A DNA stretch of 40,995 nt from Deltaproteobacteria bacterium (GTDB taxonomy: Bacteria > Desulfobacterota > Syntrophobacteria > Syntrophobacterales > Syntrophobacteraceae): contig JAJYTC010000018.1 of the NCBI GenBank assembly GCA_021793275.1, forward strand, positions 1-40,995, read 5' to 3'. Below are positions 35,855 to 40,639 of this stretch, one piece after another. Position numbers and translations under genes: made by a program. The first letter of the stretch is position 1, and the number at the start of each line of letters is the position of its first letter. Below the pieces are notes generated by a model. It saw only the letters and a program-made list of their open reading frames with translations. It was not told the DNA's origin and did no database searches.

Positions 35855-35883
35855 TTGACAAAATCGGGGCGCTCTGTTAAACA
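35855..35883 (+). promoter_or_regulatory. sigma-70 promoter of the tRNA-Asn gene
   Basis: TTGACA at 35855-35860, a 17-nt spacer and TAAACA at 35878-35883 lie just upstream of the tRNA. The transcript should start near 35890, a few bases before the mature 5' end. Confidence 0.75.
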
Positions 35884-35896
35884 GAATCTTCTTCAT

Positions 35897-35969
35897 TCCC
35901 CGGTAGCTCAACCGGCAGAGCGGGTGGCTGTTAACCACTAGGTTGGCGGTTCGAGTCCGTCCCGGGGAG
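35897..35969 (+). tRNA. tRNA-Asn (anticodon GTT)
   Basis: A 73-nt cloverleaf: acceptor TCCCCGG pairs with CCGGGGA, the D-arm is GCTC..GAGC, the anticodon stem GGTGG/CCACT encloses loop CTGTTAA with GTT at 35930-35932, the variable loop is AGGTT, and the T-arm has the TTCGAGT loop. CCA is not encoded. The last 27 nt are repeated at 36304-36331, typical of a tRNA used as an integration site. Confidence 0.95.
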
Positions 35970-35970
35970 C
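35943..35970 (+). repeat. direct repeat, copy 1 (3' end of tRNA-Asn)
   Basis: These 28 nt, the T-arm and 3' acceptor half of the tRNA, recur identically at 36304-36331. Such tRNA 3'-end duplications are the usual mark of site-specific insertion. Confidence 0.85.
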
Positions 35971-35978
35971 TTTCATAT

Positions 35979-36014
35979 AAAGGGCTGGGCCGCAAGGTCC
36001 GGCCCTTTTCTTTT
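35979..36014 (+). terminator. intrinsic terminator of tRNA-Asn
   Basis: A 13-bp stem with two G-T pairs (outer arms AAAGGGC / GCCCTTT) and a GCAA tetraloop is followed by TCTTTT. It ends 12 nt before the GIY-YIG gene. Confidence 0.85.
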
Positions 36015-36025
36015 CAGAGACTATC

Positions 36026-36286
36026 ATGCCATACTGGGTCTACGTACTGGAAAGCCAAACCTCTGGCCGTCTTTACTGCGGGCAAACCTCGGACCTGGAC
36101 AGACGCATTGCCCAGCACAATGACCCGGGGCACACATTCACTCGGACGACCAAAGTGTTTGATGGACCATGGCGCTTAAAATGGAGCCATCAGTGCACGT
36201 GCCGTACCGATGCTATCAAATTGGAACGTAGAATCAAGAAAAGGGGGGCCGCACGCTTCCTGGCAGACCAAGCGGGCGGCTGTTAA
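36026..36286 (+). CDS. small GIY-YIG endonuclease-domain protein
   Basis: This 86-residue protein is a single GIY-YIG nuclease domain of the UPF0213/YhbQ-like size. The motif appears as VYVLES..RLYCGQT at residues 5-21. Catalytic-type residues R27 and N32 (DRRIAQHN) and the metal-binding E67 (LERRIKKRG) are present. It lies between the tRNA-Asn gene and a partial tRNA-Asn copy. Its last codons, including the TAA stop, are made from the anticodon-arm-like sequence of that copy (36272-36286). No good ribosome site is seen. This arrangement suggests a small mobile or homing-type cassette; a DNA-repair role is the alternative. Confidence 0.8.
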   Translation: MPYWVYVLESQTSGRLYCGQTSDLDRRIAQHNDPGHTFTRTTKVFDGPWRLKWSHQCTCRTDAIKLERRIKKRGAARFLADQAGGC

Positions 36287-36331
36287 TCCCGCGAAGCGCG
36301 GGATTGGCGGTTCGAGTCCGTCCCGGGGAGC
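36272..36331 (+). repeat. partial, altered tRNA-Asn copy (insertion junction)
   Basis: Positions 36272-36286 match the anticodon arm of the tRNA at 14 of 15 positions, and 36304-36331 match its 3' end exactly. Between them, the 8 nt of the true tRNA are replaced by 17 nt that help form a perfect 8-bp hairpin (ATCCCGCG / CGCGGGAT). The acceptor 5' half and D-arm are missing, so it cannot be a functional tRNA. Confidence 0.85.
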
Positions 36332-36341
36332 CCAGAAAATC

Positions 36342-36377
36342 GAGAGGCTAGCCAAGTTGGCTGGCCTCTCTTTTTTT
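36342..36377 (+). terminator. strong intrinsic terminator
   Basis: Outer stem GAGAGGC / GCCTCTC and inner AGCCAA / TTGGCT are followed by seven T residues. It lies just past the partial tRNA copy and would stop transcription coming from the GIY-YIG gene. Confidence 0.85.
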
Positions 36378-36380
36378 GCG

Positions 36381-36399
36381 GTGTCAACATAGTGTCAAC
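36381..36399 (+). repeat. two GTGTCAAC direct repeats
   Basis: GTGTCAAC occurs at 36381-36388 and 36392-36399, 11 bp apart, directly after the terminator. Such short repeats beside a tRNA junction may be arm-type recombinase binding sites; this is a guess. Confidence 0.4.
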
Positions 36400-36436
36400 T
36401 CTATGCCAGTTTCACCTAATGAAAAGAGGGTCGCAT

Positions 36437-36871: not shown

Positions 36872-37287
36872 CTATTTCCGGATGGAAAGCAGCCGCAGCC
36901 CATCAATTCGTTCGAAGTGGTTGACGTTGTTGGTAAGAAGGGTCAGGTTGCGGCAAAGGCAGGTAGCGGCGATCAGGAGATCAAAATCTCCGATCATTCT
37001 TCCGGTTAACTGCCGGAATTTCACAATTTCCCGCGCTCCCGACCGAAGCATTGGCAAATATCCTGGTCCACTTCCATTACAGGGAATCGGGAGAGAAACA
37101 TGTCGAGGATGGTTTCATTTTTCTCCGGATCTCGGGAGTAAAATACTCCTTCGTAGAGTTCGGCTAAAGACATGACACTGAGGGCCACTCCTTTAGGCTC
37201 AAGTTCCAAAAGTTTCTCCGTGGTGGCCTGTATGTTGTTCAGATGATCGATAACCCAGTCCGTATCCACCAGATACCTGAGCTTCAT
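36872..37287 (-). pseudogene. VapC-type PIN-domain toxin, frameshifted
   Basis: The first part (37287 down to 37021) encodes the PIN N-terminal half, with LVDTDWVIDHL carrying the first acidic residue and SLAELYEGV the second. It stops at FGRERGKL. The C-terminal half lies in another frame (to 36872) as GDFDLLIAATCL and LTLLTNNVNHFERI, with the remaining acidic residues. Together they form a full PIN domain, so a single-base change near 37020-37030 broke the gene, or the read has an error there. The start overlaps the antitoxin stop by 4 nt. Confidence 0.8.
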
Positions 37288-37532
37288 AGTTTGACCTCCG
37301 GTCGAGTTGAAAGCAAACGATCTTCATAAATCCGCCGCTTGAGTTCTTCGCAATCGATAGTGTCTTTCCAGTCTCCGGCAGTGGCCATGAGGATATCCTT
37401 AGCCGTTACGGTTTCAGATTTGTTCCGACGGGGCCGTTTGGTCTTGGCCTTTTTTCTCAGCCGTTCGGCCAGGGACTCCAAGAGTTTAACGTCCTCGTCA
37501 TCCAAACCGTGGATTTCAATAAAATGTGCCAT
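37284..37532 (-). CDS. VapB-like antitoxin
   Basis: This 82-residue protein is charged and mostly helical, with a basic linker (LRKKAKTKRPRRNKS) and a C-terminal part (WKDTIDCEELKRRIYEDRLL) that could wrap the toxin. Its stop overlaps the PIN-domain start (ATGA), the normal toxin-antitoxin layout. The N-terminal part is short of clear AbrB or ribbon-helix-helix motifs, so the family is named from context. Confidence 0.7.
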   Translation of the reverse strand: MAHFIEIHGLDDEDVKLLESLAERLRKKAKTKRPRRNKSETVTAKDILMATAGDWKDTIDCEELKRRIYEDRLLSTRPEVKL

Positions 37533-37806
37533 CGGCCTCTCCTTTTCCGTGGTAAATTAAATAGAGAACTTGTCCGTAGTGGGCGTTCTAAGCCGCGATA
37601 CGGTTATTCTATGCCTTTTCAGACTGTTGTCAAACCACCTGAGTTGCAATTTAAATACATCCCTGGCCGGTGTTTATTCCGCCTCGTGAGGGTATTGCCG
37701 TCGAAGCATGAGGCCTTTTCGAAAGCCGGCCAGTGTCCGGCAGTTTGACTGCGAAAGCAAATTCCCTCATCTTTTTCGAGGAACAGCTATACCTTATCCT
37801 CAAAGC

Positions 37807-38763
37807 ATGGAAGAGGATAATCTAAAAATGGTAGAGGACTGTTTCCGGGAAGCCCGGATTACCGACGAACTGCGGCCGGGCTCCATCAAAAAATACGGGA
37901 GTTCGATCAAGAACTTCCTGGAACTGCTCGGGCCGAAAAATCTGACAGACTTAAACAACCGCGACTTTGGCCACTACATTCTCGAAATGAAAAGCCGGGG
38001 GGCCAGTAATGTCCGCATCGCCAATGTCATCGCCGCCATGAAGTGGCTGATTGCCCGCTTGTGGGAGAAGGGCGCCACATTTCCCTCTCTTGATCTCCTT
38101 GCCGTGAGGAAACCAAAAGCTGTAAAAAAAGAGACAAATTATCTCACCGAGCGCGAGGTAGCCCAATTCCTGGACACGGTCCAGGACGATACTTCGAGGC
38201 GGTCAACGGTTAAGGGGGGCCGCTTTATGGCGTTCACCATGCTTCTTTTGCAAACCGGCGCCCGGATCGGGGAAGCCCTGTCCATCAATCGGGCCAATAT
38301 CGACCGGGAGAACAAGGAAATCCAAATAGTCGGGAAAGGCGGCAAGCCCCGGACCCTGTTTTTGCGAGACGAGACCCTCCACTGGATCGATAGATATCTG
38401 GCCGTGAGGGAAGACGACGAACCAGCCCTTTTTGCCTGCCAGGACGGGACCGCCCGCTGGAAACAGACGGATGCTGGAAGGAGTTTTAAAAGATATAAGG
38501 ACAGGTCGGGAATCAAGAAGCATTTTGTCATTCACACGTTTCGGCACACTTTTGCGACGATGTATCTCATGAAAGGGGCCGGCATCAACGTGGTCCAGAC
38601 GGCCCTCGGCCACTCCGATCCGGTGACAACCCTCAAATACTATGCTGCCGCCGTGGAAAAAGCCAAAGTAAGGGAAACGATCAACGACCGGCATTTCGAC
38701 TTCATCCCAAGCTCCCTTCTAGCTTCAAGGTCACTACCGAATAACTGCCATCTGTCCCAATAA
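37807..38763 (+). CDS. tyrosine recombinase/integrase (Xer-like), plus strand
   Basis: This 318-residue recombinase has a SAM-like N-terminal DNA-binding domain (about 10-95) and a catalytic domain. Catalytic residues are all visible: R153 in TGARIGE, a Lys at K177 or K180 in the beta-hairpin (VGKGGK), H243 and R246 (HTFR), H269 in LGHS, and the nucleophile Y278 or Y279 in LKYY. The ATG at 37807 fits the N-terminus; longer in-frame forms from 37708 run through non-conserved sequence. A possible driver of the tRNA-linked accessory region, though it lies about 1.5 kb from the tRNA copy. Confidence 0.88.
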   Translation: MEEDNLKMVEDCFREARITDELRPGSIKKYGSSIKNFLELLGPKNLTDLNNRDFGHYILEMKSRGASNVRIANVIAAMKWLIARLWEKGATFPSLDLLAVRKPKAVKKETNYLTEREVAQFLDTVQDDTSRRSTVKGGRFMAFTMLLLQTGARIGEALSINRANIDRENKEIQIVGKGGKPRTLFLRDETLHWIDRYLAVREDDEPALFACQDGTARWKQTDAGRSFKRYKDRSGIKKHFVIHTFRHTFATMYLMKGAGINVVQTALGHSDPVTTLKYYAAAVEKAKVRETINDRHFDFIPSSLLASRSLPNNCHLSQ

Positions 38764-39706: not shown

Positions 39707-40639
39707 TTACAGATCCAAATACTCCCGGTGTGCCTTCTTTGCCAGCTCCTTGTCTACGCCCAGGTAGTACTTACAGGTTGTATCCAACCGCTCATGGCCC
39801 AGGATTTCCTTGACGTGGACGATGGGGCAGCCGTTAAATATCAGATTGGTAGCCACCGAATGCTTGAGGATATGCGGAGTCAGCTTCTTGGTGATTTTGG
39901 CTTTCTCCCGATGACGTTTGAAGAACCGCCACATGTCCCCGGGAGTGAGCCGGCGCGGCTCGCCGTTCGTCACAAAGACGGCCTCGCACATGTCATGGCG
40001 CCTTTCCAGATACCGCCTGATCCATTCTAAGGCCCGGTCGGTGAAGAACACCCGCCGCTCCTTGTTGCCATTACCGACGATCTTGGCCTCTTTCTTTTTC
40101 CAGTTGATGTCTTTCCGATTGAGCGAAAGCACTTCGCTTATCCGCATCCCGGTCCCCAGGATCGTTTCCACTATCGCCCGGAACCGCAAGTCCTTCATCC
40201 GGGAGACATCGATTGTTCCGAGAAATGTCTCGATCTCTTCCTTGGTGAGAAAAAGGACCTCCCGCCGCGCCCTTTTGGGCGGCCGGATCTGTTTGGGATT
40301 CAAAACGGGAAGTTTTAGGAAATCCCGGCAGTAAGTGAGGAAGCTCCTCACAGCAAAGACCACGCTGCATATCCGGGCCTGGCCGACTCCCCGGTCCACC
40401 ATGAGTCTTTTTAACCGGACAAAATCCTCAACGGCAAGGGCAGAAACGTCCTTGTCCCCGATGTCCCGGATGAACCAGCCCAGGGAATCCCGGTACTTCG
40501 AAACGGTCCGGGGAGAGAAGTTAAGTTCGTAGCGGGCGTACTCCAAGAAGCCCTCGATGAGGCCGCTGATTTCCCTTCCGGAGCGTTGCGATTTGTCGTG
40601 GAAAGCAGCGCATTCCAGTGACTCTTTTGAGTTTTTCAT
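39707..40639 (-). CDS. tyrosine recombinase (Xer-like) with variant HxxK box, minus strand
   Basis: This 310-residue recombinase has an N-terminal SAM-like domain (about 25-110) and a catalytic domain with R166 (TGMRISE), K193 (GNGNKERR), H256, H282 (LGHERL) and Y291 or Y292 (CKYY). The second catalytic Arg of the HxxR box is Lys here (HILK, K259), an unusual but conservative change. It is related to, but clearly diverged from, the plus-strand recombinase. The ATG at 40639 lies close to a hairpin with a T-run (40649-40673), which may control its expression. Confidence 0.88.
   Translation of the reverse strand: MKNSKESLECAAFHDKSQRSGREISGLIEGFLEYARYELNFSPRTVSKYRDSLGWFIRDIGDKDVSALAVEDFVRLKRLMVDRGVGQARICSVVFAVRSFLTYCRDFLKLPVLNPKQIRPPKRARREVLFLTKEEIETFLGTIDVSRMKDLRFRAIVETILGTGMRISEVLSLNRKDINWKKKEAKIVGNGNKERRVFFTDRALEWIRRYLERRHDMCEAVFVTNGEPRRLTPGDMWRFFKRHREKAKITKKLTPHILKHSVATNLIFNGCPIVHVKEILGHERLDTTCKYYLGVDKELAKKAHREYLDL

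Follow-up and report, generated by a model that had tools for sequence, protein, structure and literature searches.

The locus examined here raises the question of how a small, free-standing nuclease gene came to lie between an intact tRNA gene and an imperfect copy of the same tRNA. It is located in a stretch of 40,995 nucleotides (hereafter the window) from a member of the Syntrophobacteraceae (contig JAJYTC010000018.1), and an original prediction made from the sequence of this stretch had suggested a homing-like cassette that inserts at tRNA genes, rebuilds their 3' end, and is carried by its nuclease instead of an integrase. With a probability of roughly 0.7, we favor a closely related view, according to which the locus would represent a minimal mobile cassette, which has a single tRNA gene as its insertion site and is formed by the gene for a free-standing GIY-YIG endonuclease of one domain, and a bacterial counterpart of the mobile ORFs (mORFs, endonuclease genes that replace 3' ends) found in fungal mitochondria. 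What we observe is a 361-bp insertion relative to an empty site, a fully retained tRNA, a displaced native flank, and a preference for the type of tRNA. The locus comprises the following features.

35855 to 35883, + strand: promoter-like region of the tRNA-Asn gene (TTGACA ... TTAAAC) in the native left flank, read from the sequence
35897 to 35970, + strand: intact tRNA-Asn (GTT), the presumed rebuilt target (ARAGORN; Rfam RF00005, 8e-14)
35971 to 36331, + strand: inserted unit of 361 bp, missing from the empty site L049 of a congener
35979 to 36016, + strand: element-borne terminator-like hairpin, AAGGGCTGGGCC-GCAA-GGTCCGGCCCTT plus a T run (RNA fold z = -4.7)
36026 to 36286, + strand: GIY-YIG nuclease ORF of 86 amino acids (PF01541, E 1.7e-16)
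36271 to 36286, + strand: displaced copy of tRNA positions 23 to 38 (the loop and 5' strand of the anticodon stem) that matches at 15/16 and contains the stop codon TAA
36287 to 36303, + strand: palindromic hairpin TCCCGCG-aag-CGCGGGA in place of tRNA positions 39 to 46 (copy compared with tRNA)
36304 to 36331, + strand: displaced 3' portion of the tRNA (T-arm and acceptor end), matching tRNA positions 47 to 74 at 28/28
36332 to 36405, + strand: native downstream flank of tRNA-Asn with its own terminator, now 3' of the displaced copy (59/73 versus L049; fold z = -6.3)

The tRNA-Asn(GTT) gene at 35897 to 35970 is the only tRNA that ARAGORN recognizes in the window and the sole full-length match of its kind in the genome; the flank preceding it, TATTGACAAA...GTTAAA, is kept in congeners. 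The nuclease gene is indeed framed, as had been claimed, by this tRNA and by an exact 28-nt copy of its 3' end, and the near-identical anticodon arm noticed earlier is present with a single mismatch. A chance origin of the repeat is excluded because its 19-nt core is confined to two sites in the 4.65-Mb genome, even with up to two mismatches allowed. The unit from 35971 to 36331, predicted to be about 360 bp long, measures 361 bp, with exact ends and a crossover that are ambiguous, being masked by the 28-nt repeat; the borne and the displaced 28-nt 3' ends are identical in the window and distinguishable by their flanks alone. Its only gene, in the sense of a single ORF with a family match, is that of the GIY-YIG endonuclease, whose last codons and stop were correctly recognized as tRNA-derived: GGC TGT TAA lies in the copied anticodon arm, and the C-terminus reads ...AGGC-stop. 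Our analysis added to the original prediction the 7-bp hairpin within the copy, two terminator-like hairpins, one 3' of the intact tRNA and another 3' of the copy, and the empty site in a congener. A group I intron within the tRNA was considered and rejected: ARAGORN reads tRNA-Asn as unsplit, and the tRNA is the only Rfam match above the gathering score between 35800 and 36450.

A search for relatives with a single, uninterrupted tRNA had been proposed, and such empty sites were found. A tRNA-Asn match is present in 10 of the 11 genomes of the genus, among which the distribution of the cassette is patchy. At L049 (genome G005), the tRNA-Asn is directly followed by sequence that matches the flank found behind the displaced copy in the window (59/73). 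No such match to L049 exists for the window sequence that adjoins the intact tRNA, and the hairpin at 35979 to 36016 has no homology to the native L049 flank. We compared the filled with the empty site by joining the window flanks across 35971 to 36331, which gave a match of 173/205. This alignment covers little more than the tRNA itself, reaching about 60 nt to its 5' side and about 73 nt to its 3' side, and the wider neighborhoods differ. The postulated rebuilding of the 3' end is supported by these flanks, with native downstream sequence situated 3' of the displaced copy and new sequence adjoining the intact tRNA. Three states are found among congeners at a second tRNA-Asn site, which has an EF-G gene upstream and 1.3 kb of upstream synteny at 78-85% identity: empty (L051), occupied by a window-type cassette (L036/L045), and occupied by another GIY-YIG gene (L052). 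In L052, this gene is accompanied by a remnant of greater age and by a palindrome of another sequence, GAGCTTGCCCTGAGC...GCGAAGGGAGTC, and the distal flank matches the native L049 flank at 40/48 positions; the distal flank of L036 has no clear match to that of L051.

Insertion of a cassette at a tRNA gene, supported by the empty L049 site, gains further support from its recurrence elsewhere. Related units adjoin many kinds of tRNA genes in at least three bacterial phyla, the targets being Asn, Asp, Pro, Arg, Ala, Val, Lys, Thr, Ser, and also Met, and those beside tRNA genes lie on the same strand every time. GIY-YIG genes with tRNA-coded C-termini or stops, the search for which had been recommended, adjoin a variety of tRNA genes in other genomes. 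We also sampled 90 PF01541 loci, ranked by protein score alone and hence not random; a same-strand tRNA ends no more than 160 nt upstream in nine cases, where about 0.1 would be expected on an assumed figure of 50 tRNAs per 3.5 Mb; a tRNA starts just downstream in four, and an opposite-strand tRNA is found on either side in none of the 90. Matches to our A1 profile (E 1e-12 or better) are present in 104 of 198 Bacteroidota genomes. Twenty of the 29 Bacteroidota loci that were fetched are tRNA-adjacent (16 with the tRNA up to 160 nt upstream and four with it just downstream; opposite-strand tRNAs in none of the 29), a fraction that describes this subfamily only and not GIY-YIG genes overall since the A1 profile was built from tRNA-associated proteins.

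The common form of these units runs from an intact tRNA through the nuclease gene to the displaced 3' part. In a rarer mirror form, represented by L028, L088, and L126 (Asn) and by L133 (Ser), a hairpin-interrupted displaced 5' part comes first and the intact tRNA follows. The start codon of the L028 gene lies at the anticodon-loop sequence, the ORFs of L028, L088, and L126 terminate within the intact tRNA, and both mirror forms flank a single tRNA at L088.

The 3' ends of tRNA genes are classical targets of integrases, and the 28-nt repeat could accordingly be regarded as the duplication left by a tyrosine integrase, with the GIY-YIG gene as incidental cargo or as the remnant of a larger island. 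Two integrase genes are present in the window, which lends this idea some substance. It is, in our judgment, highly improbable all the same: the 361-bp unit contains no integrase gene, units with a GIY-YIG gene only recur across phyla beside other tRNA genes, and neither a hairpin-bearing copy of the anticodon arm nor tRNA-coded C-termini would be expected for att sites. Furthermore, in the genomes G020, G046, G630, and G576, between about 49 kb and over 700 kb separate the cassette from the closest integrase gene. The part of the original prediction that dispenses with an integrase is supported by the complete or near-complete genomes that were checked, where the nearest tyrosine-recombinase gene is tens to hundreds of kb off. 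The two tyrosine-recombinase genes downstream in the window (37708 to 38763, + strand; about 39752 to 40252, - strand) probably belong to a separate island or remnant near tRNA-Asn. Between them and the cassette, ORFs at 36872 to 37532 (- strand) resemble a toxin-antitoxin pair whose PIN-type (VapC-like) toxin is split into two frames; the two ORFs scanned against Pfam (37021 to 37287 and 37284 to 37532) gave no match.

Tandem arrays of the cassette are common, with a unit length of 317-400 bp. Two identical 357-bp units follow each other in G020, four units with a spacing of 322 bp are present in G630, three units, two loci, in G576, and three units at 392 bp in G439. These arrays imply that the intact tRNA affords its locus no protection from further copies. 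At L128 (about 173 to 425, with the GIY-YIG gene on the + strand), five head-to-tail mini-units of 66 bp consist of the 3' part of tRNA-Asn and a hairpin; they contain no nuclease gene and resemble non-autonomous copies.

Perfect tandem copies such as those of L009/L035 might also be ascribed to unequal recombination that duplicated a tRNA together with a small neighboring gene, the repeats being debris and the nuclease not the mover, and a tandem duplication of this kind would yield an identical unit structure. We consider this very unlikely because it leaves unexplained the first gain at empty sites, the match between nuclease subfamily and tRNA type, the spread across phyla, and the regular presence of a hairpin in only one of the two tRNA copies. 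The three EF-G-linked states also argue for acquisition of a divergent cassette at an empty site, contrary to this reading.

The preference for particular tRNAs is apparent from the proteins themselves. When 111 GIY-YIG proteins were placed in a tree, a clade of 27 members proved tRNA-associated throughout (support 84), and 14 Asp-type rows constitute one of its branches (support 93) while stemming from several host families; tRNA preference thus travels with the protein lineage. Asn-type proteins group with the Pro and Arg types; as the tree was computed from 98 columns of a short protein, its deep forks are weakly supported. The window protein matches PF01541 with 60.7 bits (curated cut-off 22.6), and Y6, Y17, G19, R27, H31, N32, and E67, along with other residues, are invariant across 17 relatives. 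No separate DNA-binding domain is recognizable in its 86 amino acids, which counts against our preferred reading; it shares a single-domain GIY-YIG core with UPF0213 (YhbQ-like) proteins and SLX1. The closest solved structures by sequence profile are 1zg2 (1.9e-13) and 1ywl (3.2e-12), both UPF0213, and SLX1 4xlg (1.9e-9); the window protein aligns with UPF0213 and, in its N-terminal part, with SLX1, with the core Tyr, Arg, and Glu residues kept. SLX1 is a subunit of a eukaryotic structure-specific repair nuclease, and we know of no tie of either UPF0213 or SLX1 to tRNA genes. NCBIfam contains no family for the window protein, and its group I intron endonuclease model matches 12 of the 17 relatives weakly. 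An AlphaFold single-sequence model was of moderate quality (pLDDT 70.5) and added little.

GIY-YIG genes of other subfamilies were encountered as well. A second small GIY-YIG gene in the same genome (L002, 1501 to 1776; G000:C203) has no adjoining tRNA, is flanked by TTCCGGC palindromes, and is assigned by the tree to a different subfamily. At L023, L031, L033, L080, and L125, other-subfamily genes are positioned 103-268 nt 3' of tmRNA genes on the same strand.

The GIY-YIG ORF is under purifying selection, with dN/dS values of 0.06-0.15 in five pairs with unsaturated synonymous change. Together with the very wide distribution, this might be taken to indicate that the host keeps the gene for its own benefit, be it for defense (for instance, by cutting phage-borne tRNA genes) or for the dosage or processing of tRNAs; SegB, whose GIY-YIG gene lies beside a tRNA, can raise tRNA dosage (PMC13096335). 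We view such a role as decidedly improbable in light of the patchy occurrence among congeners, the tandem arrays, the decayed copies (e.g., L012, L037, L039, and L052), and the many different tRNA targets. Moreover, searches of 50,697 phage records and 72,556 plasmid records yielded nothing related to the window protein, and PHROGs contained no close relative; a search of viral contigs with a Pro-type protein produced no matches either.

The hairpin within the displaced copy sets this part of the locus apart from the intact tRNA, which keeps the presumed target. In the window (36287 to 36303), it takes the place of the variable loop and of part of the anticodon arm, and it has a perfect 7-bp stem that grows to 11 bp when flanking bases are included. 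A stem of at least 6 bp is present in the replaced segment of 30 of 35 displaced copies; among controls, the frequency was 3.9% for windows drawn at random from these loci and 2.0% for segments after shuffling. Most Asp cases and several of the Pro, Ala, and Lys type show an exact replacement of the anticodon arm, whereas the T-arm is affected in part of the Asp, Pro, Met, and Ser cases, including Asp, Pro, and Ser of the Bacteroidota. An outer TCCCG...CGGGA is common to the stems of many lineages, with variable inner pairs and loops. The displaced 3' block found its best or joint-best match in the tRNA of its own host in every case, a result that is biased and attests to consistency only because the blocks were picked by their match to the host's own tRNA. 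Hairpin-bearing copies are a source of false tRNA annotations: at L169 (1400 to 2263), ARAGORN assigned tRNA-Gly(CCC) to three copies of displaced tRNA-Asn that contain a TCCCG hairpin.

These data lend themselves to a model for the movement of the cassette. The nuclease would most likely cut an unoccupied tRNA-Asn gene in the region of its anticodon arm, and donor-templated repair could then copy the cassette in, with the donor tRNA as the left homology arm and the donor's displaced tRNA 3' part as the right one. In the resulting product, whose outcome is what we see at the locus, the resident 5' part and the element-borne 3' part with its terminator would together form a full tRNA, followed by the nuclease gene and by the resident 3' part and native terminator, both shifted downstream. 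The hairpin at the expected cut position in the anticodon arm probably renders the displaced copy uncuttable; as hairpins vary in position between the anticodon arm and the T-arm, this link to the cut site is indirect. Repeated cutting of the still-intact tRNA would yield tandem arrays, and expression of the nuclease gene probably relies on read-through from the tRNA promoter past the tRNA terminator.

In this organization, the cassette, judged by its sequence, works like an mORF. Fungal mitochondrial mORFs with a C-terminal duplication are found in atp6 of Allomyces macrogynus and in atp6, atp9, cox2, and nad3 of Glomus; their endonuclease ORF is of the LAGLIDADG type or, in atp9, of the GIY-YIG type, and their native 3' end resembles that of relatives more than the borne end does (PMC3630166). 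Common to both are an endonuclease ORF, a borne 3' end fused to the resident gene, a displaced native end, and empty alleles in relatives. In contrast to the bacterial tRNA target, the 361 bp, the 86-residue enzyme, and the hairpin in the displaced end of the cassette, mORFs target mitochondrial protein genes, and the inserts named are larger, with the displaced atp6 end about 1000 bp downstream (PMC3630166). Unlike classical homing elements, whose insertion destroys the target, the cassette leaves its presumed target in the intact tRNA, which counts against the preferred reading. SegB of T-even phages resembles the cassette in being a free-standing GIY-YIG homing endonuclease encoded in a tRNA region; it is implicated in breaks in tRNA-containing DNA, and tandem amplification is driven by microhomology that the nuclease gene shares with the tRNA (PMC13096335). 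SegB differs in being phage-borne, and the text consulted describes no displaced, hairpin-bearing tRNA fragment (PMC13096335). No link of bacterial GIY-YIG genes to displaced copies of tRNAs or to palindromes was found in the literature we searched, which largely excluded preprints and subscription papers, so that an earlier description may exist.

As in REP/RAYT systems, small palindromes are dispersed throughout the genome that harbors the window. Palindromes of the form TCCCG-N5..12-CGGGA exceed a reversed-pattern control in 11 of 12 genomes; the excess is modest in the window's genome (134 versus 74) and strong in Bacteroidota (e.g., 108 versus 10, 56 versus 2, and 78 versus 4). G010, with a tRNA-Asn site that lacks a GIY-YIG gene, has no excess of TCCCG palindromes. 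One might speculate, although we hold it to be rather unlikely, that SLX1/UPF0213-like GIY-YIG nucleases act on DNA stem-loops, tRNA arms and palindromes alike, and install or spread TCCCG...CGGGA-type palindromes as RAYTs do REPs, with the tRNA cassettes as one face of this activity. On this view, the nuclease itself would produce the replacements of anticodon arms and T-arms, which would be no bystander insertions.

Collectively, these units suggest that minimal selfish DNA of this kind is widespread. If our preferred reading as a mobile, mORF-like cassette is correct, it would rank among the smallest autonomous mobile elements, with a single nuclease gene of 86 codons, and essential tRNA genes would provide it with a harmless, universally conserved landing site that is left working. 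It would extend the mORF principle from fungal mitochondria to bacterial chromosomes and explain why many small GIY-YIG genes have C-termini coded in tRNA sequence. At the same time, it would connect GIY-YIG genes with dispersed palindromes in a testable way.
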